DNA of 64,000 nucleotides. It comes from an uncultured Bacillota bacterium. GTDB lineage: Bacteria; Bacillota_I; Bacilli_A; RFN20; CAG-826. Made by a program: the position numbers and the translations under genes. The notes under the pieces are model-generated. The model did not search any database. It had not been told where the DNA came from and worked only from the letters and a program-made list of their open reading frames with translations. Location of the stretch: the NCBI GenBank assembly GCA_949293555.1, contig CASFDV010000002.1:418210-482209 (forward strand), written 5' to 3'. Shown in pieces: positions 16,195-29,051 of this stretch; the stretch's first letter is position 1; every line of letters starts with the position of its first letter.

Positions 16195-17462
16195 ATGAAG
16201 CCTACGACCGTGGAACTGTTCGCTGGAGTGGGCGGGTTTCGCGTCGGGCTGAACCACGCGCGCCTCATCGAGGGGAAGACCGTCGAGGAACCTCTTTGGG
16301 AAACCCTCTTCATGAACCAATGGGAGCCGGGCTCCAGGAAGCAGGACGCGTTTTCGTGTTATTTGTTAAGATATAATTCCAGAGAGAGAGAGAGAGAGAG
16401 TCTTTAAGGAATGAAGAAGAAGGGGGAGGCACCCTTTTCTCCAACGAGGATATCGCGACGGTTCCCGCGGAGAAGGTGCCGGAGGCCGCCCTTCTGACCG
16501 CGGGCTTTCCCTGCCAGGACTATAGCGTCGCCCGGAAGACCCACGAGGAAATCGGGATCGTCGGGAAGAAGGGCGTCCTCTGGTGGGAGATCGCCCGCAT
16601 CCTGAGGGAAAGGAGGATGCCCTTCCTCCTCTTCGAGAACGTGAACCGGCTGCTCCTATCCCCGAAGAAGCAGAGGGGAAGGGATTTCGCGATCATCCTC
16701 CGCACCCTCGCGGAGCTTGGCTACGAGGCCGAGTGGAGGGTCGTGAACGCATCCGACTACGGCTTCCCCCAGCGAAGGAGGAGGACCTTCCTCCTTTGCT
16801 ACCACGGGAGGACGAGGCTGGCGGAGAGGATGAGGGAGGCCGACGTCATCTCGGAAGGAATCCTTGCCAAGGCGCTTCCGACGGAAGAGGCGAAGGAAGT
16901 CGCCCTCCACGACCTCATGGCGTTCAAGGACCTCGCGGCGGTGAGCGACCTCTTCTCGGGACCCTTCGGGAACGGGGGATATCTTCGGGAGGGGAAGGCG
17001 CACGCCTTCGAGCTCGTCACAAGGAAAGAAGAGCCTCTCCTCCTCAAGGACGTCCTTTTCCACGAAAGGGACGAGAGGCTCTACCTCTCTCCCTCGCAGG
17101 AGGAGAAGTTCGCCTTCCTCAGGGGAGCGAAGAAGATCGTCCGGAAGAGCGCGCTCGGGGAGGAGTACCTCTACCAGGAAGGAAGGATGTCGGAGTACGA
17201 CTCCGCCTATCTTCCTGCCAGGACGATGCTGACGAGCGAAGGCTCCGTGAACCGCTCCTCCCACGTGGTCAAGGACCCCGGGAACGGGAGGCTCCGCTTC
17301 CTTTCCCCGGAGGAGTGCGAGCGGCTGAACGGCTTCCCCGCCGGCTGGACCGACACCGGGATGAGCAAGGGAAGGCGCTACTTCACCATGGGGAACGCCT
17401 TGGTCACGGGGATCGTAGGAAGGATCGGGGATGCCCTCCTTCCGTACGTGAAGGAGGAATGA
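16195..17462 (+). pseudogene. DNA cytosine-5 methyltransferase, frame broken by an (AG)10 tract (probably phase-variable, OFF)
   Basis: From ATG 16195 the frame reads MKPTTVELFAGVGGF, which is methyltransferase motif I, and continues through NQWEPGSRKQDAFS. It then enters twenty bases of pure AG repeat (16381-16400) and stops at TAA 16405-16407. The frame starting at 16401 continues as SLRNEEEGGGTLFSNEDIA and contains the catalytic motif IV GFPCQDYSVA, motif VI LFENVNR and motif VIII QRRRRTFLL, to TGA 17460-17462. Nine or twelve AG units would fuse both parts into about 421 or 423 aa; ten units do not. All C5-methyltransferase motifs are otherwise intact, which favours repeat-mediated switching over decay. 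The downstream endonuclease start lies just after the stop codon. Confidence 0.88.
16381..16400 (+). repeat. (AG)10 microsatellite inside the methyltransferase gene
   Basis: Ten perfect AG units lie within the coding sequence at the break between the two methyltransferase frames. Loss of one unit or gain of two restores the frame. Confidence 0.97.
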
Positions 17463-17464
17463 GC

Positions 17465-18163
17465 ATGGACGGAAGCGAGGCCATGGCGGCGGTCTTCGGA
17501 GCGATCGAGCGCCTCCGCGGGAAAGCCATCGACTCCCTTCCGGGCGCCATTGGGCTCGATCCCAGGGGAAAGGGCTATTTGTCGGGCGCTGCTCGGCGGA
17601 GCATCGAGCTTTCCTTGGGAGGGAAGCAGTTCGGCGCCCTTCTCAAGAAGGCTTCCGCAGAAATGCGGGTACTCACCGGAAAGCGCCGTCCAAACGGGCT
17701 TTTCTTCAAGGAGAATCTTCCGTTTCCAGCGTTTTCGTTCAAGGAGATCGCCCTCACTCCATGGGAAGACTCGGGGCTGAGGAAGACCCTCTCGGAAACC
17801 AACTTCATCCTCGTCCTCCTCGACCCCGTGGACAAGTGCATCGGCTCCGTCCTTCCCCTGAAGATGGACGAGAAGACCCTCGAGGGGAAGGTGAGGGAGG
17901 CCTATCTCCGCACCCAGTCCATCCTTCTTTCCGGGGACATCGTGCGGGAGGCGAAGGAGGGGCGCCATCTTTCGAACTTCCCGGGCGAGGCGGAGAAAGA
18001 AGGGAACCCCGTCCACGTGAGGCCCCATGGGAGAGACTCCAGGGACAGGGACCTCCTTCCTGTGCCGGACCGCCTCACAGGCCTTAAGGATTATCCGCGG
18101 CAGGCCTTCTGGATCAGCCGCTGGTATATGGACTCTTTGCTGAAAGGAGAAGGGAATGGCTGA
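17465..18163 (+). CDS. MutH/Sau3AI-family restriction endonuclease
   Basis: ATG 17465 has AAGGAGG seven bases upstream; an earlier ATG at 17459 is too close to it. The 232-aa product has LDPRGKGYLSGAARRSIEL near the N terminus, then LPFPAFSFKEIALTPWEDS and LRKTLSETNFILVLL. The C terminus has HVRPHGRDSRDRD and the ending QAFWISRWYM. These segments match the MutH/Sau3AI nuclease family. Position directly after a C5 methyltransferase makes it the restriction partner. Sau3AI cuts GATC, but the specificity here cannot be read from sequence. If the methyltransferase is OFF, this gene would need to be silent or coupled. Confidence 0.78.
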   Translation: MDGSEAMAAVFGAIERLRGKAIDSLPGAIGLDPRGKGYLSGAARRSIELSLGGKQFGALLKKASAEMRVLTGKRRPNGLFFKENLPFPAFSFKEIALTPWEDSGLRKTLSETNFILVLLDPVDKCIGSVLPLKMDEKTLEGKVREAYLRTQSILLSGDIVREAKEGRHLSNFPGEAEKEGNPVHVRPHGRDSRDRDLLPVPDRLTGLKDYPRQAFWISRWYMDSLLKGEGNG

Positions 18164-19394
18164 GGATTTGATTATCAGGGGGACGTATCGGATCCGTCCC
18201 ATCGAGAATGAGTTCAAGAGATTTCCGTTCCGGGGGAAATCGGATAACTACCAAGTTTACGAAATCCCGCTGGATGCCATTTTCTACAACGATCTAAACG
18301 GGCGGATCGTCACCATCATCCAGGCGGACGAGGCTCGAAGGGGCAAGAGCGTCGACTACGGGGCCCTTCGCCGAGAGGATCCCGAGGAGTACCAGCGCCG
18401 TTTCGAGGAGTTCATCGAAAAACAGAACCCCGGGAAGCTTCAGGAACTGAGGAGGAACATCGCCCTGTTCGGGCAGCTGGAGCCCGGGATCATCCTGACC
18501 GACGGGCGGATCATCGACGGCAACCGACGGTATACCGCGCTTCGAAAGAACGCCCGCGATTCCGGGGAGACGCTCTTTTTCCACGCCGCCGTGCTTCCCG
18601 CGCCCGAGGCCGAGGACAAGGAGGGCTGGCGCTATATCAAGATGCTTGAGCTCCAGATCGCCCTTGCGAAGATGCAGCCCCTCGAGTACACGCCGATCGC
18701 AAGGCTGGCGGACTTCTATCGAGCGACCAGGGACCCGAACACCGTCGGCCTTCTTTCGTCCAAGGAATACCAAAGGAACGCCGGCATGACGGTTGGGGAC
18801 CTCAAGAAGCTCTCCGACGAGCTCGACATCGCCCTGGACTTCCTCGAATGGAAGGGAACGCCCCTTTCCTTTGAGTACCTGGAACGGAAGGCGATGGACG
18901 GCCCGCTCCGCGAGATCATCAAGTACCGCCGGAAATGGACTGAGGCGGAGTACGAGGGGATGAAATCCTCCATCTACACCTTCCTTGACGAAGGGGACGG
19001 GGATATGACGAGGAAAATCCGGGAGTATCTCAAGTATCTCTGGGATTCCCCTACCGCGAGGGAAAAGGCGAGATCCTTCTCCCTTCCGACTCTCACGGAA
19101 GAAAGGGCGGGCGATGCCCTGGGCAAGGGCGTCTCGGACGAGATGCTCCGCGACGCCGAGGAATCCGTCTTCGTCGATCTCGACTACATTTCCGCGCAAG
19201 GGCTCCTCGATAAGTCGTCGAAAGCCTATAGGGCGCTCAACGATTTCCTCGCCTTCGAGAACATCCGCGCGCTTGGATCCCTGAGCAAGAGCGAGCAGGA
19301 AGAACTGAAGAACCGTCTAAAGGCAATCCGGACGCTTTGCCTGGAGGACCGCGCGCTGGCGCGCTGGGCGTTCGGGGAGGAAGAGAAGGACTAG
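18156..19394 (+). CDS. ParB/Srx-fold protein
   Basis: The 412-aa protein has a ParB-like N-terminal domain: a lead-in YQVYEIPLDAIFYNDLNGRI, then FGQLEPGIILTDGRIIDGNRRYTALR near 106-131, where DGNRR is the family nucleotide/nuclease motif. The C-terminal 230 residues are helical and not recognised. It overlaps the endonuclease end by eight bases and is followed by an overlapping helicase start, with AAAGGAG before its ATG. In this setting it is more likely an effector or DNA-binding subunit of the defence cluster than a chromosome-partition protein. No ParA is present. Confidence 0.75.
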   Translation: MAEDLIIRGTYRIRPIENEFKRFPFRGKSDNYQVYEIPLDAIFYNDLNGRIVTIIQADEARRGKSVDYGALRREDPEEYQRRFEEFIEKQNPGKLQELRRNIALFGQLEPGIILTDGRIIDGNRRYTALRKNARDSGETLFFHAAVLPAPEAEDKEGWRYIKMLELQIALAKMQPLEYTPIARLADFYRATRDPNTVGLLSSKEYQRNAGMTVGDLKKLSDELDIALDFLEWKGTPLSFEYLERKAMDGPLREIIKYRRKWTEAEYEGMKSSIYTFLDEGDGDMTRKIREYLKYLWDSPTAREKARSFSLPTLTEERAGDALGKGVSDEMLRDAEESVFVDLDYISAQGLLDKSSKAYRALNDFLAFENIRALGSLSKSEQEELKNRLKAIRTLCLEDRALARWAFGEEEKD

Positions 19395-21928
19395 TGGGCC
19401 TCCGCGACATCCCGTACGGGATCGGCTACGACCCCCTGAAGCGAGGGGAGGAGCCCTTGGAGGGCTTCTATATCCCCGCCCTGAAGGAATCGTGCCGCTT
19501 CGACCGGCTCAGCTGCTACTTTACCCTGGGTTCCCTCGCCCTTCTTGGGAGAGGGCTCGCGCCTTTCTTCCTTCAGGGAGGAAGGATGAGGCTTCTTCTC
19601 ACCCGCGAGATCGGGGAGGAAGAGATTGACGCGATCAGGAGGGGGGAGAGGCTGAGGAAGGAGGTCGAGGACGGCCTCCTGGCATCCTTGGAAGGGGCGA
19701 TCACCCCGGACTTCTCGAACTTATCCTATTTGATCGCCTCGGGGCGATGCGAGGTGCGGCTGCTCTTCCTTCCCCGAGGAACGGGGCTCGCCCATTACAA
19801 GATAGGGGTTTTCTACGACAAGGAAGGCGACTACGTCTCCTTCAATGGCTCCGAGAACGACACCGAGGCAGGGCTTCTCATGAACGGGGAACTCGTGAAC
19901 GTCTTCCGTTCCTGGCTCCACCCCGAGCTTGCCAAGGACCCCAGGGAACGCTTCGACTCCATGTGGGAGAACCGCTACAGCGATCGCCTTGTCTCCGTTC
20001 CTCCGACCGAAAGGATCCTGGCGAGGCTGAAGTCCGGCTCCCGGGGCGCGCTCCTCGAGACGCCGGAGGGGACCGCCGAGATCCTGGAAGGGATCCTCCT
20101 TGACGTCGGGAGGGAAGGCGTGTTCCTCGAGGACCATACGAGAGGGAGGTTCCTCGACCAGTACCGGAACAGATACATGCCCCGCTATTGGGAAAGGAAG
20201 GATGGGAAGTGGCGCTTTTCCTATCCTTCCCGCAGGAAGGCCATCCGGCTTCTTTCCGACTATTACTCAAGGGTTCCGGGACTGCCCTTTCTTCTCGGGG
20301 AAGGCGCCTCCGAATATCTTGAGGGAGGAGACTACGACCTTGAGAAGAAGCGGGAGCTCGCGCTTGCCTTCAAGGAAGGGAGGGAAAGCGCGGAGGTCAC
20401 CGAGCAGTACGAGTCCTTCAAGAGGATCGTCCGCCAGGAAAGCCCGGCTCCCTTCCGGGAACGCCAGCTGAGGAACGCCTTCTTCCATTTGCTTCTGGAG
20501 CGTTCCTTCGACTTCTCCGTCCCGGGGACGGGGAAGACCTGGATCGCGCTCGCCCTATACGCCTACCTCCGTCATTTCGGGCTGGCGAGCCATATCGCCG
20601 TCATCTGCCCCTATAGCGCCTATGATTCATGGGACAGGGAGAACCGGACGATATTCCCGCAGAACCCTATCTCTTTTGAAAGAATCGAGGACCCTTCCCA
20701 TATCGGAGAGAGCGAGGGGTGGCTCCTCAACTACGAAAAGCTCACGGAAAGGAACGCGCTTCTCCTCAAGGACGCGCTCATCGGAAAGAGGACCTTCCTC
20801 GTGATCGACGAGTCCCACCGCGTGAAGAATCCCCATGGCCAAAGGGCGCGCTCCCTCCTCCGCATGGTGGATGAGTCCGACTTCCCGCCTCGCTTCCGGC
20901 TCCTGCTATCCGGCACTCCTCTTCCCAACAGCTTCCGGGATCTCTTCACCCAGCTTTCCCTTCTCTACCCCGACGAGATGGAAGAAGGGCTGAGGGACTT
21001 CTCCCTCGACCGGCTCGCCGAGGCGGACGGGGATGCCGTCCTTGCCGATCGGATCAACGAGGAGCTTTCCTCCCTCTTCGTCCGCACGGGGAAGGAGGAG
21101 ATGGGCGTTCCTCCCGCCGACCCTGACGACAGGACGACCTTGCGCGTCCCCTTGACCCCGGAGGAGTCCTCGCTTCTGAGGGAAGTGTATCTTTCGACTT
21201 CCTCGAGCTTCCTCCTCCGCTTCATCCGCCTTCTGCAGGCAACGACCAACCCTCGTCTCCTGGAAGAAAGGATCGACTGGGCGGAGCTGGGGGAAGAAGA
21301 GGAAGGGTGTCCCTCCGTTTCCTCGGAACCCCTTGGGGAGAAAGTCCTGAAGGCGGCGAGGGGCATCGGCCTTTCCTCAAAGACGAAAGCCGCCCTCGGC
21401 CTCGCGGAGAAAGAAACGAAGGAAGGAAAGAAGCTCGTCTTCTGGACGATGTTCCGCGGGACTATTGATCTTATAGAAGAGGAGCTCAGGAGGAGGGGAG
21501 TGCCCGTCCTCGTCGTCGACGGGCGCGTGGACGTGGAGGAGCGGGAACGAAGGGTCTCCCGGTTCCGTGAGGGAGGGCCCGCGGTCCTCCTTACGAACGC
21601 GCAGACGCTCGGGGAGTCCGTCTCCCTGCACATGGCGGCCCACGAGGCCATTTACCTTGAATATGGGTACAACCTCGCCCACCTCCTCCAGAGCAAGGAC
21701 AGGATCCACCGCGTGGGGCTTCCGGAGGGGACAAGGACTCGCTACTACTTCGCGATCGGGGAGAGCGTGGACTCCCGTTTCCCTACGCTCGACCTTGCCG
21801 TGCTGGCCGCCCTCGACCGCAAAGCGGAACGCATGAGAAAAAGCCTCGGGGAAGGAAAGCTCATGGTGGAAGAGTCTTCTCCCGAGGAGGAGGCGAGGGA
21901 CATCCTTCTCTCCGCCGGGACGCCCTGA
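19394..21928 (+). CDS. SNF2-family helicase with N-terminal phospholipase-D-like nuclease domain
   Basis: I use GTG 19394, which overlaps the previous TAG. The 844-aa product starts with a PLD-like domain (HYKIGVFYD near 133, FNGSENDTE). A SNF2 helicase follows, with Walker A VPGTGKT near 375, DESH box LVIDESHRVKN near 470, LLSGTPLPNS, and the C-terminal QSKDRIHRVG near 771. One HxK motif is clear, so PLD activity may need dimerisation. It is the last gene of the methyltransferase-endonuclease-ParB-like operon. PLD plus SNF2 plus a C5 methyltransferase recalls DISARM parts, but the gene set here differs. Confidence 0.85.
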   Translation: MGLRDIPYGIGYDPLKRGEEPLEGFYIPALKESCRFDRLSCYFTLGSLALLGRGLAPFFLQGGRMRLLLTREIGEEEIDAIRRGERLRKEVEDGLLASLEGAITPDFSNLSYLIASGRCEVRLLFLPRGTGLAHYKIGVFYDKEGDYVSFNGSENDTEAGLLMNGELVNVFRSWLHPELAKDPRERFDSMWENRYSDRLVSVPPTERILARLKSGSRGALLETPEGTAEILEGILLDVGREGVFLEDHTRGRFLDQYRNRYMPRYWERKDGKWRFSYPSRRKAIRLLSDYYSRVPGLPFLLGEGASEYLEGGDYDLEKKRELALAFKEGRESAEVTEQYESFKRIVRQESPAPFRERQLRNAFFHLLLERSFDFSVPGTGKTWIALALYAYLRHFGLASHIAVICPYSAYDSWDRENRTIFPQNPISFERIEDPSHIGESEGWLLNYEKLTERNALLLKDALIGKRTFLVIDESHRVKNPHGQRARSLLRMVDESDFPPRFRLLLSGTPLPNSFRDLFTQLSLLYPDEMEEGLRDFSLDRLAEADGDAVLADRINEELSSLFVRTGKEEMGVPPADPDDRTTLRVPLTPEESSLLREVYLSTSSSFLLRFIRLLQATTNPRLLEERIDWAELGEEEEGCPSVSSEPLGEKVLKAARGIGLSSKTKAALGLAEKETKEGKKLVFWTMFRGTIDLIEEELRRRGVPVLVVDGRVDVEERERRVSRFREGGPAVLLTNAQTLGESVSLHMAAHEAIYLEYGYNLAHLLQSKDRIHRVGLPEGTRTRYYFAIGESVDSRFPTLDLAVLAALDRKAERMRKSLGEGKLMVEESSPEEEARDILLSAGTP

Positions 21929-21965
21929 CGAATTGTTCTCAACGTCAAGATCTATCCATGAATGG

Positions 21966-21995
21966 AAGTTGTAGAATTCTACAAGTTTTCACTAT
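21966..21995 (+). repeat. Left direct repeat with 16-bp palindrome, upstream of DUF4143 ATPase
   Basis: Thirty bases match 23348-23377 with one difference. Inside lies the perfect palindrome TTGTAGAATTCTACAA (21969-21984). Confidence 0.9.
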
Positions 21996-22012
21996 GGGAC
22001 TCTGAATTACGG

Positions 22013-22018
22013 TATCCT
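22013..22018 (+). promoter_or_regulatory. -10 of DUF4143 ATPase gene (leaderless type)
   Basis: TATCCT lies six bases before ATG 22025, and no Shine-Dalgarno sequence is present. The palindrome lies just upstream in the expected -35 to upstream region, so it could act as an operator. Confidence 0.5.
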
Positions 22019-22024
22019 ATCCCC

Positions 22025-23323
22025 ATGATCAAAAGAGACAGGTATCTTGACCGTCTTTGGCGGTCCCGTGGCAATGGATTCCCCAAGGTAATCACCGGGC
22101 TCAGGCGCTGCGGGAAATCGTATCTTCTCGATCATCTTTTCCGGGACAAGCTTGTTCAATCCGGGGTTCATGAAGATGAAATCCTTTCCATCCGGCTGGA
22201 CGATGATAAAAACGCCCACCTTCGGAATCCCCTTCTTTTAGGCTCCTATGTGCGGGAGAAGGCGGTTGGGAAAGAACGCCTCTACGTTTTCCTGGACGAA
22301 ATCCAAGAGGTCGTCCCCGTGCCTAATCCAGGCTTTTCCGGATTGGTTTCCCCAGAGGCCAAGGGGAGTCTGATCAGCTTCGTCGACGTCGTGCTGGGCC
22401 TTTCCCGAGAGGAGAACATCGACCTTTATGTGACGGGGAGCAACTCCAAGTTCCTTTCCTCGGACATCGTCACGGAATTCCGGGACAAATCCACCCAGAT
22501 CCGGGTCCGCCCCCTCTCGTTCGAGGAGTATTCCGCCCATAGCCGCCTTTCTCACTACGAGGCCTTGTACGAATACATGCGCTTCGGCGGCATGCCGAGA
22601 TTCGCCGACGGGAGCGAGGAGGAACGTAAGGAGTATCTCGCACAGCTCCTCAAGATGACCTACGCGCGGGACATCGTCGAACGGAACAATCTCAGGAGGG
22701 AAAGCGCCTTGTTCGACTTGCTCACCGTGCTTTCGGATGAGGCGGGAATGCTCGTGAGCCCAGCGAAGATCGCCGGGGCGATGCGCGTCTCGGGCAGGTC
22801 GGAGTCCGACGAGGGGCTCATCGCCCGCTATGTTTCCTTCCTGGAGGACTCCTTCCTTGTCGAAAAGGCCTTTCGTTTCGAGATTCGCAGGAAGAAACGG
22901 ATCGGCGCCCTCTGGAAGTGCTATTTCACTGACCTGGGAATCAGGAACGCCGCCCTTTCCTTCTCGCGGTTCGACGAAGGCCGCCTTCTTGAGAACCTCG
23001 TCTACAACGAACTCCTTTACCACGGCTATTCCGTCTCGATTGGGATGCTGGACACCGTTGGCAAGGACAAGGCCGGAAGGAGCGTCCGCGAAACCCTTGA
23101 GATCGATTTCCGCGTCGAGAAGGGGAATCGCCTCTTCTATGTCCAAGTCTCCGCCGACCCCTTCGGGGAGAAGGCGAGGGCGCGCGAGGTCCGGCCATTC
23201 CTCAGGGCAAAGGATTCGATCCCCAAGATCATCGTGACGAGCCGTCCTATCCCCGAGATGCGGGATGAGTATGGCTTCCTTTGGATGAGCGCGACGGATT
23301 TTCTGTTGAAGTACATCTCCTAG
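22025..23323 (+). CDS. ATP-binding protein, AAA_14/DUF4143 family
   Basis: The 432-aa protein has Walker A GLRRCGKS (25-32), Walker B LYVFLDEIQ (about 86-94), a sensor segment YVTGSNSKFLSS and the DUF4143 C-terminal domain ending in a restriction-nuclease-like core (LEIDFRVEK). The family is very common in gut bacteria and archaea and is of unknown biological role. The start MIKRDRYL is supported by a -10 hexamer six bases upstream. The gene stands alone between two copies of a 30-bp repeat, between convergent helicase genes, which suggests a single-gene mobile cassette or a conserved autoregulated unit. Confidence 0.85.
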   Translation: MIKRDRYLDRLWRSRGNGFPKVITGLRRCGKSYLLDHLFRDKLVQSGVHEDEILSIRLDDDKNAHLRNPLLLGSYVREKAVGKERLYVFLDEIQEVVPVPNPGFSGLVSPEAKGSLISFVDVVLGLSREENIDLYVTGSNSKFLSSDIVTEFRDKSTQIRVRPLSFEEYSAHSRLSHYEALYEYMRFGGMPRFADGSEEERKEYLAQLLKMTYARDIVERNNLRRESALFDLLTVLSDEAGMLVSPAKIAGAMRVSGRSESDEGLIARYVSFLEDSFLVEKAFRFEIRRKKRIGALWKCYFTDLGIRNAALSFSRFDEGRLLENLVYNELLYHGYSVSIGMLDTVGKDKAGRSVRETLEIDFRVEKGNRLFYVQVSADPFGEKARAREVRPFLRAKDSIPKIIVTSRPIPEMRDEYGFLWMSATDFLLKYIS

Positions 23324-23347
23324 AAGCCTTTTAACCACAATGATGAA

Positions 23348-23377
23348 AAGTTGTAGAATTCTACAAGTTCTCACTAT
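23348..23377 (+). repeat. Right direct repeat with 16-bp palindrome, downstream of DUF4143 ATPase
   Basis: This is the second copy of the 30-bp repeat, again containing TTGTAGAATTCTACAA (23351-23366). It lies 24 bases after the ATPase stop, in the gap before the convergent helicase. Confidence 0.9.
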
Positions 23378-23395
23378 TGGATCGTCGAAATTGTC

Positions 23396-26389
23396 TTAAT
23401 CTGGCCTCTCGCTTTCCTTTTCCGCATCGAGCCTCAGATAGTCGTAGATGTCCTTCCGGACAGGATGCTGGAGGATGAGGGGGAACTCGACAACATCCTG
23501 CCCGCCTCTCATCTTCGCTTCCCGAGGACCCTCCTCCTGGTCGATCCTCGCCTCTCCTAGATATAGGAACGCGCCACCGTCCTCGCCCCTCTTCCTCGTC
23601 AGGAAAAGGGGGATTCTTCCGCCTTCATCGTGAAGTCGGATCAGCTTCCGGATCTCAGGGCTTTCCAAGGTGAGGTCGTTTCGCGAAACCCAGAGGAAGT
23701 GGGATGGGTCCAGGAGCTTGTCCTGGTAGGCGATGGATTCCTCCTCCTTCACGTCCTTCTGGTACGTCACGAATATCGGCGTCGCCCTTTCTCTTTCGAG
23801 CACCTGGTATCCGTAGAAGGTGTTCGTGTAGTCCTTCTCCGCGAAGAGAAGCCGCGTGACGTCGAACCTCCGGTACTGCTCGTAAGGGACGAAGCCCCAG
23901 GGGCCTTCCCTTTTTGCCCCGAACCTCGACTTCCTGTAGTGGAAGGCGATCTCAAGGAGCCAGTCCATCTGCTTCCGGAACCAAGGGGATGACCGATAGG
24001 ACTGTAGAACCCAAGGAGAAAGCTCCGCGATTCCGGCTTCAAATTTCCCGAATTGCGACATTCCTTCGATTTTCCTGCCTCCGCGGAAACCTCCCCCGAA
24101 GAAGGTGCGGAGAAATCCATCCGCCTGGGAAGGGATGGCCTCTCCCCACTCTCTCAGGAGGGTTTCCTCGAACGTTCCTCCCCTGAGGGGAATCCCTCGC
24201 TCCGGTCCTTGCAAGAGAAGTTTGAGAAGGAGGGGCTCGAACGCCCTCATCCCGTTCCCGACGAGCGGGGAGAGGTAGGAGAGAAGCCCGTTCTCCCTCG
24301 GAGGAAGGGAAGGGAAGTCCTCCGGCCTTATCCGGTGGAGGAACTCCTGGTAGTTGTGGTGCCTAAGGTCGCCGGTCCTGTCCAGGAAGAAGCGGGCGGA
24401 ATAGGGCGAGAGGAGCTCGAAGTCCTTCAAAGAAGGAACCCTGGGCGCATCCTTCCCTTTTCCTTGGATCCGTCGCGAGAGGTCCTCCCAGGCTTCTTCC
24501 AGGCGTCTATTGCCGAGGAGCTTCGACTTCGCGATCGAACGCATCACCCTTTCCCGCGCGACCTTGTCGAACTGGATCGTGCTCACCCCAGGGAGGAAGG
24601 GGTTCTCCATCATCGTGAGGAGGGAGCAATGCCCTTCCATCTTCCTCGTGAAGGAGGCGGGGATCAGGTAGTTGCCCTTCTCGTAGTTCCCGATGAAGTC
24701 GAGGACGACGACGTATTCCTTCCCCCTGGCAAGGCGGAGCCCCCTTCCCAGCTGCTGGAGGAAGACGATGGGGGAGTCAGTGGGCCTTGCCATGATGATC
24801 TGGTTGACGTTGGGGATGTCGACGCCTTCGTTGAGGACGTCCAAGGCGACGAGCATGTCGAGCGCATCCTCTCCTTCTGGTCCGTCCAGCCGCTCGATGC
24901 GGGCGTTCCTTTCGCGGAGGGGTGTCGCCGCGGTGATCCCTTCCGCGCGGATCCCCAGCTTCCGGAGGGCAAGGGCGACTTCTTCCACCTTCCGCGCCCC
25001 TTTTCTCTCCGATCCTCTCCCGGAGACGAAGACGAGAGCCCTCAGGCGGTCTCCCGAGTAGCCGAAGTAGCGGCTCTTCTCGACAATCTGCCTCGCCATC
25101 TCCTCCGGCTCCAGGGCGGAGAAGTCCTCGAAGTCCCTCTCCTGCCCGTCGATGGTTATCTTCCCGATCCCGAAGTAGGAGAAGGGCACGAGCATCTTCT
25201 CCTCCAGGGCGTCGGGAAGGCGGATTTCCAGAATGATGTCGTTGTCGAAGAGCCCGTATAGGTCGTAGCCGTCGCTCCTGTCGGGAGTGGCGCTCATGCC
25301 GAGGAGGAAGGAAGGCTCGAAATGGCCGATGATGTCCTGGTAATGGTTTTCCCCGACGCGGTGCACCTCGTCGATGACGACCATGTCGAATTCGTCCTTC
25401 CGGAAGCGGGAGAGATGCTCCTCCCTCCTTATGGTGTCGAAGGTCGCGAAGACGAAGTCGGCGGCCTCGGCGTCCCCTTTCTCCGAGCCTCCGTAGAAGG
25501 CCTGCCTCCGCCCGGGCATGAGGCGGCGGTACGCCTCCATCGCCTGCCGGAGGATCCGTTCGCGGTGGGATATATAAAGGAGACGCCCCACCCTGATCGT
25601 CTTCAGTTCCCGGACCGCGTAGGCGGAGGCGAAGGTCTTCCCGGTGCCGGTCGCCGCGATCAGGAGGCCCTTCTTAAACCCTTTCCCGATGACATCCTCG
25701 AGCCTCCTTAAGAACGTCCTTTGAAGATCGTTTGGATGGAAATCCAATGCAGAAAGCCCCTCTTCTTCCGAATATTCCCGTTCCTTATGCGCCTCTTCCC
25801 ATTCTTTTTCGTAGGAGGGGAGCGCCTCCTCCAGCGCTTCCCCGAGCCCCCAGAGCCTTTCGAAATCCTTGAGGATGTCCCTGAGCGCCTCCCCTTCCTC
25901 CTGCGAGACCATCTCGCTGTTCCATTCGTTGTTCTCGATAAGGGCGCTCTCGGTGATGTTGCTGGAGCCGACGATCGCCTTCCAGTAGGGCGTCCCGTCC
26001 TTCGTCCTCATGCGGAAGAGGTAGCCTTTCGTATGGAAGCCGGGCTTCCCTCCTCCCGTCCGGTAGAGCCTTCCATCCACCCCGTCCATCATGAGGATGT
26101 CGCGGAGGGCCCGCGGCTCCGTGAAGGCGAGGTAGTCCGAGGTGAGGATCCTGCCCTTCGCCCCCCTTGCGACCGCCTCCCCCATCTTGAGCTTCAGCTT
26201 CAGGAGGCCCTGGGCGTTCACGAAGGCGACGGAGAAGAGGAACTCCTCGCACTCCTCGAGATTCCTGTTGATCGCGGAAAGGACGGAGACGGCCTCCTCC
26301 CGGGAATTGCGGACGAAGCGCGGGAGCACGAGCTCGCCCCGCTCCCCTCGGAGGTATTCCTCCTCAAGCGCCCTCCACTTCCCTTCCAT
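23396..26389 (-). CDS. DEAD/DEAH-box helicase with PLD-like N terminus and DUF3427-type C terminus
   Basis: The 997-aa protein starts at MEGKWRALEEEY. A PLD-like domain has FHTKGYLFRM and IVGSSNITESAL. A superfamily-2 helicase follows with Walker A AATGTGKTFAS near 242, VIDEVHRV near 337, MSATPDRSDG, and QQLGRGLR near 551. The C terminus fits DUF3427 and ends in a segment resembling restriction-linked proteins. Such helicases are frequent in defence islands. The upstream part of the open frame is antisense to the malic enzyme gene and is not coding. The ribosome-binding site is weak (CGAGG adjacent to the ATG), so the exact start is uncertain. It is convergent with the DUF4143 gene. Confidence 0.85.
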   Translation of the reverse strand: MEGKWRALEEEYLRGERGELVLPRFVRNSREEAVSVLSAINRNLEECEEFLFSVAFVNAQGLLKLKLKMGEAVARGAKGRILTSDYLAFTEPRALRDILMMDGVDGRLYRTGGGKPGFHTKGYLFRMRTKDGTPYWKAIVGSSNITESALIENNEWNSEMVSQEEGEALRDILKDFERLWGLGEALEEALPSYEKEWEEAHKEREYSEEEGLSALDFHPNDLQRTFLRRLEDVIGKGFKKGLLIAATGTGKTFASAYAVRELKTIRVGRLLYISHRERILRQAMEAYRRLMPGRRQAFYGGSEKGDAEAADFVFATFDTIRREEHLSRFRKDEFDMVVIDEVHRVGENHYQDIIGHFEPSFLLGMSATPDRSDGYDLYGLFDNDIILEIRLPDALEEKMLVPFSYFGIGKITIDGQERDFEDFSALEPEEMARQIVEKSRYFGYSGDRLRALVFVSGRGSERKGARKVEEVALALRKLGIRAEGITAATPLRERNARIERLDGPEGEDALDMLVALDVLNEGVDIPNVNQIIMARPTDSPIVFLQQLGRGLRLARGKEYVVVLDFIGNYEKGNYLIPASFTRKMEGHCSLLTMMENPFLPGVSTIQFDKVARERVMRSIAKSKLLGNRRLEEAWEDLSRRIQGKGKDAPRVPSLKDFELLSPYSARFFLDRTGDLRHHNYQEFLHRIRPEDFPSLPPRENGLLSYLSPLVGNGMRAFEPLLLKLLLQGPERGIPLRGGTFEETLLREWGEAIPSQADGFLRTFFGGGFRGGRKIEGMSQFGKFEAGIAELSPWVLQSYRSSPWFRKQMDWLLEIAFHYRKSRFGAKREGPWGFVPYEQYRRFDVTRLLFAEKDYTNTFYGYQVLERERATPIFVTYQKDVKEEESIAYQDKLLDPSHFLWVSRNDLTLESPEIRKLIRLHDEGGRIPLFLTRKRGEDGGAFLYLGEARIDQEEGPREAKMRGGQDVVEFPLILQHPVRKDIYDYLRLDAEKESERPD

Positions 26390-26491
26390 CCTCGAAGAGC
26401 TTACCAGGCATGGATCCCGGGATCCAGGGCGCTTCCCCCCGCCTCTTGCCTTTCCTATCATTCCTAAGGAAGGACGGAAGGAGGCTCGGGA

Positions 26492-27670
26492 ATGGCAAAG
26501 CCAGGGGAAGCGCTGAGGAAGCATCGGGAGTGGAGGGGCAAGGTCGGGACGAAGGTCCTCGTGCCCCTGGAGGGGAAGGACGACCTTTCCCTCGCCTATA
26601 CCCCGGGAGTGGCCGAGGCATGCCTCGCAATCCGGGAGGACCCTTCCCTTTCCTTCGCCCTCACGAGGAGGTGGAACACGGTCGCCGTCATCACGGACGG
26701 GACCGCCGTCCTCGGGCTCGGGGACATCGGCCCGGAGGCAGGGATGCCCGTGATGGAAGGGAAGTGCGCCCTCTTCCGCGAGTTCGGGGGAGTGGACGCC
26801 GTGCCCATATGCCTCAGGACGAAGGACCCGGAGGAAATCGTCCGCACCATTCGCCTTCTTTCCGGCTCCTTCGGCGGCGTGAACCTCGAGGACATCTCCG
26901 CGCCCCGCTGCTTCGCGATCGAAAGAAGCCTCCAGGATCTCGGGATCCCCGTCTTCCACGACGACCAGCACGGGACCGCCATCGTCCTCGCCGCCGGGCT
27001 CATGAACGCCCTCAAGGTCGTGGGGAAGAGGCTCGATGACGTCCGCATCGTCCTCAACGGGCCCGGGGCAGCCGGCCTTGCGATCGCCCGCTTCCTCCTG
27101 TCGCTGGGGGCCAGGAACATTGTTCTCGTCGGGCTCCAGGGGATCCTCGCCCCCGGGGACCCCTCCCTCAATCCCGCCCAGGAGGAGCTGGCCCTCCTCA
27201 CGAACAGTGAAGGGAGGAAGGGAGGCCTCAAGGACGCTCTCTTGGGAGCGGACGTCTTCATCGGCGTGTCCGCGGGGCATGTCCTCACGGGGGACATGGT
27301 ACGTGTCATGGGGAAGGACCCCATCGTCTTCGCCCTGGCGAACCCCGTCCCCGAGATCGAGCCCGAGGAAGCGCGGGAAGCGGGCGCCAAGGTCGTCGCG
27401 ACCGGCTCCAGCGAGCACCCGAACCAGGTGAACAATCTCCTCTGCTTTCCCGGCCTTTTCCGCGGAGCGCTCGACGCGGGGGCCACCAGGATCACCGAGG
27501 GGATGATGAGGAAGGCCGCCGAGGCTCTTTCCTCCTACATCCCGGAGGGCGGGCTCGGGCCGGAGAGGATCCTTCCCTCGCCCTTGGATAGGAACGCCCA
27601 CAAGGCGGTCGCCGAGGCCGTCCGCGCGGAGGCCATCAAGGAAGGCGTCGCCCGTTCTTCCTCCCGATAA
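26492..27670 (+). CDS. NAD(P)-dependent malic enzyme
   Basis: This 392-aa protein oxidatively decarboxylates malate to pyruvate. Family segments visible are LAYTPGVAEAC, the metal/substrate region VFHDDQHGTAIV, the nucleotide-binding VLNGPGAAGLAIARFLL, and FALANPVPEIEPEEA with TGSSEHPNQVNN. GPGAAG replaces the usual GAGAAG. Length fits the short bacterial type without a phosphotransacetylase tail. GGAAGGAGG lies eight bases before the ATG. It stands alone between the defence helicase (divergent) and a repeat-flanked HipA-like gene that begins right after its stop. Confidence 0.93.
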   Translation: MAKPGEALRKHREWRGKVGTKVLVPLEGKDDLSLAYTPGVAEACLAIREDPSLSFALTRRWNTVAVITDGTAVLGLGDIGPEAGMPVMEGKCALFREFGGVDAVPICLRTKDPEEIVRTIRLLSGSFGGVNLEDISAPRCFAIERSLQDLGIPVFHDDQHGTAIVLAAGLMNALKVVGKRLDDVRIVLNGPGAAGLAIARFLLSLGARNIVLVGLQGILAPGDPSLNPAQEELALLTNSEGRKGGLKDALLGADVFIGVSAGHVLTGDMVRVMGKDPIVFALANPVPEIEPEEAREAGAKVVATGSSEHPNQVNNLLCFPGLFRGALDAGATRITEGMMRKAAEALSSYIPEGGLGPERILPSPLDRNAHKAVAEAVRAEAIKEGVARSSSR

Positions 27671-27675
27671 CCCAT

Positions 27676-27703
27676 TGACCCAACTTGAAATGTAGGTTAC
27701 AGA
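27676..27703 (+). repeat. Left 28-bp direct repeat flanking the HipA-like gene
   Basis: This copy differs from 29024-29051 at one base. It begins six bases after the malic enzyme stop codon and contains the -35 of the HipA-like gene. Confidence 0.88.
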
Positions 27704-27719: not shown

Positions 27720-29018
27720 ATGGACGACCGCCGTTCGCTCGAGGAGAAGATAGCCGCCCTTCCCAAAGGGTATTTGTCCCGCAAGAAGATCAATGGGAAG
27801 GAGCGCTTTTACCTTCAGTGGAGGGAAGGGGGCAGGGTCCGCTCCAAGTACGTCCCCGGGAACAAGGTGGAGGAGACGCGCCTCCTTCTCAAGGAGCGCA
27901 AGGCATTGGAGGAGGCCCTTTCCTCCCTCCCCGAGGACCGCCCGCTCCCTCGCCTTGGGAACCATGCCCGTGCCCTCACCGGGGATCTGATGTCGGGGGA
28001 CGAGCCAGCGGCTTCCTTCAAGGACGGGAGGCTCCTTTGGAAAAGCCCGCTGGCGCCTTTGTTCTTTCTCCGGAGCGACGACCTCGCCGCCTGGCTTTCC
28101 TCGCGCGCCATCGACCAGCATCGCGCCCATTCGCGAATCCTCAAGAAGGCGCTTCGCATCGCCCCGCGGGACGACCTCGCGGCATCTCTCGCCGTCCATG
28201 GGGCTACCCTGACCGACGACTACTGGTTCCGGCCGCTTCGATCGAGGACGCGATACGAGGACATCCTCTTCCGGACCGACCGCTATGCCGAGATGACCTT
28301 CTCGGGGGATGCCGGGATGCTCGCGAAGCCTCCCTCCCGCACTCCCGAGCTCACCCTCGGCGGGTCCTTCGAGAAATGCTGGCGGCTTTCCGAGGGGCGC
28401 TGGCGGATGGAAAAGGCCGGCACTGGCGCGGAACTTTTCGCCGAATGGTTTTGCGCGCGGATCGCCCCTTCCTTCGGCGTCCGCTCCGCAACCTACGAGG
28501 CCCGCCCCTCCTCGGTCATCTCCCCGAACTTCGCCGACGAGGCGAATTTCGAGCCCGTTTCCTCCCTGACGGGGGACGACGACTCCTTCCAGACGGTGTT
28601 TCGCGCTCTCATTCCCTTCGGAGAGAACGTCCTTGAGGAATACCTCCTGCTGATGCGGTTCGACGCCGTCGTCGGGAACGTCGACCGCCATAGCGAGAAC
28701 ATGGGGCTTCTGCGGGAACGCGGGACCGGGAAGGTCCTTGGCATGGCCCCGAGCTTCGACTGTAACCTCGCCCTGTTCTCGCGCGGGGCCCCTCCCTCGC
28801 CCCGGAGGGAGAAGGACGGGCTCATCCGCATGTTCCGCAAGTTCCTCAGGGAAGATAGGGATGCCCTCCGTCTCTTCTCCTCCTTGCCCCCTATCGCCTT
28901 CTCCCGCGAAAGGATGGAGGAGGCGCTCCAAGGCAACATATATCCCTTCCCGGGGGAAGGCTTCCTCTTCGAATACCTGGAGACAGGAATCGCGCGCCTT
29001 CTTGAGCCGATCGCGTAA
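27720..29018 (+). CDS. HipA-like kinase-fold protein
   Basis: The 432-aa product has an N-terminal segment LPKGYLSRKKINGKERFYLQ resembling a small DUF6788-type DNA- or RNA-associated module, then a HipA-like kinase domain. The catalytic-loop counterpart is GNVDRHSENMGLL near 319-331, and the metal-binding counterpart is APSFDCNLALF near 342. HipA kinases phosphorylate tRNA synthetases or other targets and are usually paired with a HipB antitoxin. No HipB gene is adjacent, so this is a stand-alone member. It is framed by direct repeats and sits between the malic enzyme and groES, which suggests insertion as a cassette. Confidence 0.75.
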   Translation: MDDRRSLEEKIAALPKGYLSRKKINGKERFYLQWREGGRVRSKYVPGNKVEETRLLLKERKALEEALSSLPEDRPLPRLGNHARALTGDLMSGDEPAASFKDGRLLWKSPLAPLFFLRSDDLAAWLSSRAIDQHRAHSRILKKALRIAPRDDLAASLAVHGATLTDDYWFRPLRSRTRYEDILFRTDRYAEMTFSGDAGMLAKPPSRTPELTLGGSFEKCWRLSEGRWRMEKAGTGAELFAEWFCARIAPSFGVRSATYEARPSSVISPNFADEANFEPVSSLTGDDDSFQTVFRALIPFGENVLEEYLLLMRFDAVVGNVDRHSENMGLLRERGTGKVLGMAPSFDCNLALFSRGAPPSPRREKDGLIRMFRKFLREDRDALRLFSSLPPIAFSRERMEEALQGNIYPFPGEGFLFEYLETGIARLLEPIA

Positions 29019-29051
29019 CCTACTGACCCAACTGGAAATGTAGGTTACAGA
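29015..29051 (+). repeat. Right direct repeat with inverted repeat, after HipA-like gene
   Basis: The 28-bp direct repeat copy is 29024-29051. Here GTAACCTAC (29015-29023, overlapping the stop codon) and GTAGGTTAC (29040-29048) form a 9-bp inverted repeat with a 16-base spacer. The left copy retains only part of the left arm. Confidence 0.85.

Follow-up and report, generated by a model that had tools for sequence, protein, structure and literature searches.

A direct repeat pair of 34 bp, with 32/34 agreement between its copies, brackets the AAA_14-DUF4143 gene at 22025-23323 of the window (the whole 64,000-nucleotide stretch analyzed here), and the two copies are probably private operators of the ATPase that is encoded between them. 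An earlier, sequence-only reading had described the pair as 30 bases with one mismatch, which are contained in the longer repeat, and the perfect 16-bp palindrome that it had reported for each copy was located in both. The features of the locus are as follows.

21966-21999, + strand: op2, the upstream repeat copy AAGTTGTAGAATTCTACAAGTTTTCACTATGGGA, proposed operator 5′ of the gene, with a core palindrome conserved before homologues
21969-21984: op2 core, perfect 16-bp palindrome TTGTAGAATTCTACAA, from a palindrome search of window and genome
22013-22018, + strand: possible -10-like hexamer TATCCT (weak, read by eye), just ahead of the start codon
22025-23323, + strand: AAA_14-DUF4143 ATPase gene, Q-type, PADLOC PDC-S01, from Pfam, PADLOC PDLC04787 and homologue alignment
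22082-22531, + strand: AAA_14 ATPase domain, from Pfam
22667-23155, + strand: DUF4143 region, from Pfam
23144-23152, + strand: Q374-V-S376 replacing ExK of the PD-(D/E)XK nuclease motif, predicted catalytically dead
23348-23381, + strand: op3, the downstream repeat copy AAGTTGTAGAATTCTACAAGTTCTCACTATTGGA, beginning 25 bp past the stop codon
23351-23366: op3 core, perfect 16-bp palindrome TTGTAGAATTCTACAA, from the same palindrome search

A search of the window with TTGTAGAATTCTACAA at up to three mismatches gave two matches, both in the repeats, where 0.02 were expected, and at up to two mismatches the same two were the only matches in the whole 1.34-Mb genome (G000). The near relative G030 carries the same gene together with both repeat copies. 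op2 ends 25 bp before the ATG at 22025, which is most likely the start of the gene since homologues align from MIxR; an alternative longer ORF from 21962 would span op2. A scan for consensus promoters returned none ahead of the gene. Upstream, the gene adjoins an SNF2/PLD-type gene, and downstream a DEAD/ResIII-DUF3427 helicase in convergent orientation, so that op3 lies between two converging genes. The surrounding region (16476-26467) is restriction-like in content, with a C5 methylase, the SNF2/PLD helicase and the DEAD/ResIII-DUF3427 helicase, the last of which matches a type IV methyl-directed restriction model.

The identification of the product as a DUF4143 ATPase was confirmed, as both Pfam domains score over their curated cut-offs (AAA_14, 89.9 bits against 27, 1.7e-25; DUF4143, 55 bits against 28.1, 1.1e-14). 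The protein also matches the PADLOC PDC-S01 model PDLC04787 at 8.8e-98, while a sequence search of the PDB gave no match up to E = 1 and Pfam found no transposase or recombinase domain in it. Alignment showed Qx(S/A/C/T) in place of ExK in the nuclease-like domain throughout the Q-type branch to which this protein belongs; in the window protein D361 of the PD-(D/E)XK motif is kept and the E and K are replaced by Q374 and S376, and the domain is thus predicted to be catalytically dead.

The palindrome recurs before homologues of the protein. In other genera and at unrelated loci, TGTAGAATTCTACA or one of its symmetric variants (TGTGTAATTACACA, TGTGTATTTACACA, TATAGAATTCTATA and TGCAAGTTCTTGCA) precedes the ATG of homologues with 43-53% identity, at a distance of about 28-30 bp and with a TATAAT-like box on one side and the Shine-Dalgarno sequence on the other. 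In a systematic count, 51 of 81 branch members had a palindrome whose arms were 6 bp or longer within the 90 bp upstream, where 10 would be expected. When the same measure was applied within the genus, the Q-type members were enriched (10/21 vs 3.3 expected) and the ExK members showed no excess (12/85 vs 11.8 expected). The upstream palindrome is, on these counts, confined to the Q-type DUF4143 branch that lacks ExK. The palindrome cores are short, and shared ancestry accounts for part of their conservation. A second upstream copy was present in 34 of 93 genes, 31 of them at 64-68 or 73-78 bp, and shuffled controls gave none as good; the two spacing clusters are about one helical turn apart, but one cluster largely drives the test for helical phase. 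No upstream op1 was recognizable in the window lineage. Read by eye, many homologue sites are nested dyads in which an A-rich spacer separates an outer arm from an inner palindrome, and their symmetry score was in modest excess over that of shuffled sites (12.5 vs 10.4). Operator similarity grows with protein identity, and in the relative G017 eight paralogues have eight dissimilar operators; the putative operator site thus tracks the protein, changing its sequence yet staying symmetric. The site upstream of these genes is therefore conserved, symmetric, fixed in its position at the promoter and specific to the protein lineage, as the sequence of an autoregulated gene would have it, and the sequence-only reading's proposal of paired operators through which the protein regulates itself is well supported across several genera. 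That the repeat might occur at random elsewhere, or be lacking from homologues, had been named as what would refute the earlier reading; the repeat proved private, and homologues carry the palindrome upstream.

Two further dyads were noted in other settings. A conserved dyad, GTAGAAnGCTAC, with outer arms lies at about 5087-5128 of L187 and about 7957-7998 of L183, with no Q-type gene directly adjoining, and is possibly another orphan operator. In G013, two tandem copies of TGTAGAATTCTACACTTTTGGTAGTTG stand about 90 bp apart (L017:1400-1530), away from a recognized DUF4143 start. A scan of viral contigs for a palindrome followed by N23 and ATG was set aside, as tandem repeats are present in four of the five contigs and none of the five encodes a relative.

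The downstream copy is the more variable partner. A copy of a gene's own operator was found downstream in 10 of 77 family members, about one in nine having it near the stop codon, against 0.2% in the null; the ten include the window gene and its orthologue in G030, as well as L263, which is followed by a tandem DUF4143 gene. The downstream copies lie mostly near the stop codon. Relatives on viral contigs are independent cases of such a copy: in L272 it is 35 bp long and 6 bp past the stop, in L273 it is 41 bp long and 12 bp past the stop, and in L275 and L277, which are near-identical to each other, it is 13 bp past the stop. The downstream neighbors are codirectional in some members and convergent in others, and since they are convergent here and in several other cases, the downstream copy is not simply the neighbor's operator. 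It is optional, being absent from most branch members. In the third species, G022, the gene is spread over two contigs, one of which encodes a protein 85% identical over 230 aa. Both palindromes are kept there with the same kind of change at the center, the downstream one being inverted, and the downstream intergenic sequence no longer aligns though the palindrome persists. Such persistence speaks against a passive duplication; it suggests that the downstream copy has a function or that gene conversion has acted. On balance we favor a functional downstream copy, going by sequence comparison, and op3 may also insulate the window locus, as had been suggested earlier.

Flanking repeats were then surveyed across the genus, in which DUF4143 genes are numerous (14 in the window genome, 42 in G017). 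Among 113 genes, strong gene-hugging repeats recur; each has a sequence of its own, and most contain a dyad. L015, another gene of the window genome, lies between exact 40-bp repeats that are unrelated in sequence to those of the window gene and have a dyad of their own. Flank pairs scoring at least 38 were found for 10 of 102 genes, against 0.2% expected from mismatched flank pairs of similar composition; the window gene was missed in this test because of its start annotation. Repeat-flanked genes made up 9 of 26 non-ExK genes and 3 of 87 ExK genes (Fisher p = 7e-5, a value that is optimistic because the rows are related, L001 and L020 being orthologues and L053 giving one row to each class, and because the repeat-bearing rows were picked by survey score). 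The repeats of L033 (ExK) and L053 (two genes, one of them ExK) consist of other motifs, which are found in more than one genome and may be part of a different element.

Close repeat pairs were much rarer among control genes of 750-2000 bp, where three cases stood out: a HipA-like gene of the window, a terminator-like pair and an AlbA_2 gene. The HipA-like gene (27720-29018, weak HipA_C) has 36-bp direct repeats bearing a dyad at 27668-27703 and 29016-29051, the upstream copy beginning at the stop codon of a malic-enzyme-like gene and the downstream copy at its own stop codon. It resembles the window ATPase gene in having repeats at both ends and differs in family and in the repeat itself. Its orthologues occur in G030 and G022 only, and no empty site was found for it near GroES, as only G000, G030 and G022 have the gene. 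The AlbA_2/HATPase gene of G017 (L064:5406-6884) is flanked on either side by clusters of repeats similar to CCTAGAAA, which resemble operator arrays.

If the repeats are operators, a symmetric oligomer of the Q-type ATPase would bind the dyads and repress the promoter of its own gene. With the downstream copy bound too, repression would become stronger, through gene looping or a roadblock at the gene end; paired sites in general could cooperate, loop or form a roadblock. The complex might be switched, and repression relieved, by an infection signal or by the binding or hydrolysis of ATP, and loss of the gene by recombination between the sites would be a side effect. Precedents for such an arrangement are well known, in that the phage lambda cI gene sits between OL and OR, lac has multiple operators, and operators can loop to one another. 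The likeness lies in several symmetric operators that bracket a gene or control it, a nuclease-like ATPase predicted to be catalytically dead taking the place of the repressor; there is no sequence relation, and the window protein differs in being an ATPase with a nuclease-like domain and with an own operator for each paralogue.

A different explanation is that the repeats are the ends of a one-gene mobile unit, which inserts at a single copy or leaves one behind through the action of its own protein or of a host recombinase on the dyads. We consider this unlikely, although single-copy sites speak for it at other genes. At the junction between BipA and a glycosyltransferase, G000 and G030 hold the L015 gene between two exact 40-bp copies, whereas in G022 the gene is absent and one repeat copy remains at 35/39; in addition, G000 has a lone operator copy of the L149 gene, the gene itself being present, of the two genomes, in G030 only. 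These two sites without a gene indicate that paired sites may allow loss or gain. The patchy distribution of the family, the 42 genes of G017 and, in another genus, the occurrence of near-identical members at separate loci are likewise in keeping with mobility. However, more distant genomes with the BipA-glycosyltransferase junction lack the L015 repeat, and in another genome L068 is flanked by a similar one (CGTTCGGATTGTCGCAC...), so that the lone copy can equally be what remained when a gene between direct repeats was lost. Most simply, the L015 repeat travels with its protein and the G022 copy is such a remnant, insertion of the gene into a single copy being possible. At the window locus no empty site was found in G000, G030 and G022, the only genomes with the close helicase neighbor, all three of which have the window gene or parts of it. 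Against mobility there also stand the inverted downstream copy of G022, the loss of the ExK motif in the Q-type branch, the absence of a transposase or recombinase domain in Pfam, and the fact that the repeat follows the protein and not the target. The mobile cassette proposed by the sequence-only reading is thus weakly supported. Sites with one repeat copy and no gene, which it had suggested looking for, were seen for the L015 and L149 genes; such a cassette is possible for relatives and unsupported at the window locus.

Several mobile-looking arrangements were seen along the way. In genus g3 (L231, L232, L215, L220, L221 and L222), near-identical DUF4143 genes stand at different loci amid defense-like genes, in arrays in which a recurrent junction (CCCGCATCGTGCTCCA ... 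hairpin, T-run) separates the genes and gives the look of a cassette array. The mobile copies there end well beyond the operator, which speaks against a mobile unit bounded by the repeats. An integron cassette was rejected, for the g3 arrays too, as no integrase match exceeded the TIGR02249 cut-off in six genomes; the g3 arrays also had no Rfam match. A 2,630-bp circular record of Prevotella nigrescens (L301, NZ_CP133466.1) encodes a Q-type ATPase and a specificity-domain gene; since it may be a product of assembly, it was set aside and does not count toward excision. REP-associated transposases (RAYT) are HUH-type enzymes that act on many dispersed repeats. They share with the window locus the single gene with palindromes at both ends, and differ in that the window genome has two copies only and the protein family is unrelated.

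The palindromes could instead act as RNA, with a hairpin in the 5′ UTR controlling translation and a hairpin after the stop protecting or ending the mRNA. The position of the palindrome in AT-rich relatives, between the TATAAT-like box and the Shine-Dalgarno sequence, would suit this, but we judge it very improbable: the second upstream copy stands upstream of the promoter and so is not a 5′ UTR hairpin, no terminator-like site was found at op3, there was no Rfam match, and op2 of the window precedes the possible -10 box (weak, by eye). Still less probable is that the repeats are a target-site duplication, a functionless chromosomal sequence copied on insertion of the gene, as suggested by repeats that abut the gene, often few bases from the stop codon, and by the single-copy sites at L015 and the L149 gene; the repeats hold the branch's conserved promoter palindrome at unrelated loci and carry dyads, their copies are kept or changed together in G022 and may be inverted (L264, L057), and 34-45 bp is an unusual length for such a duplication.

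The alignment column most associated with the operator half-site is residue 345, in the C-terminal nuclease-like domain, with the pairings TAG-V, TGT-F/Y and CGT-N. Residue and half-site switch together on the tree in four independent pairs, too few for significance, and among held-out proteins four of six agree with the pairing while L270 and L283 disagree. Residue 345 as a half-site determinant is a lead, not a result.

The window protein belongs with the AAA_14-DUF4143 family named PDC-S01, a single-gene candidate for defense against phages, and here, as noted, the gene neighborhood is restriction-like. PDC-S01, an ATPase fused to a PD-(D/E)XK fold, was the fourth most common defense system in prokaryotes in a 2026 survey of archaeal immunity, which gave 29,494 bacterial and 9,986 archaeal cases; most such defense candidates await validation (PMC12988326). 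A rumen survey recorded 10,358 cases of PDC-S01 (PMC13356809). Among the PADLOC models, Q-type proteins matched best with PDLC04787 and the two ExK proteins tested with PDLC04790. The name PDC-S01 covers both kinds, and the Q-type branch differs in lacking ExK and in having putative private operators. A literature search, with many journals outside its coverage, returned no description of operators or repeats at DUF4143 genes, and in the literature covered DUF4143 was met by name only in a Thermus Argonaute paper.

A broader reading, which we hold tentatively and think rather doubtful, is that the large Q-type branch consists of mutually orthogonal, self-bracketing DNA-binding ATPases that are not nucleases. 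Each paralogue would have a private nested-dyad site at its promoter and in some cases another behind the gene, and jointly these sites would mark out a minimal unit, selfish or immunity-like, open to loss, and perhaps to gain, between the operators that it owns. PDC-S01 is abundant among defense candidates yet without an established mechanism, and the loss of ExK together with private operators, gained or kept, would split it in two and predict different functions for the two kinds. The putative front operator is tied to the protein branch in many bacteria, which makes both the control of these genes and their status as defense genes directly testable. Since the predicted DNA target of each Q-type protein is written beside its own gene, it offers an immediate experimental handle, and the dozens of protein-operator pairs with differing specificities would provide a natural collection from which the rules of DNA recognition by this fold could be learned.
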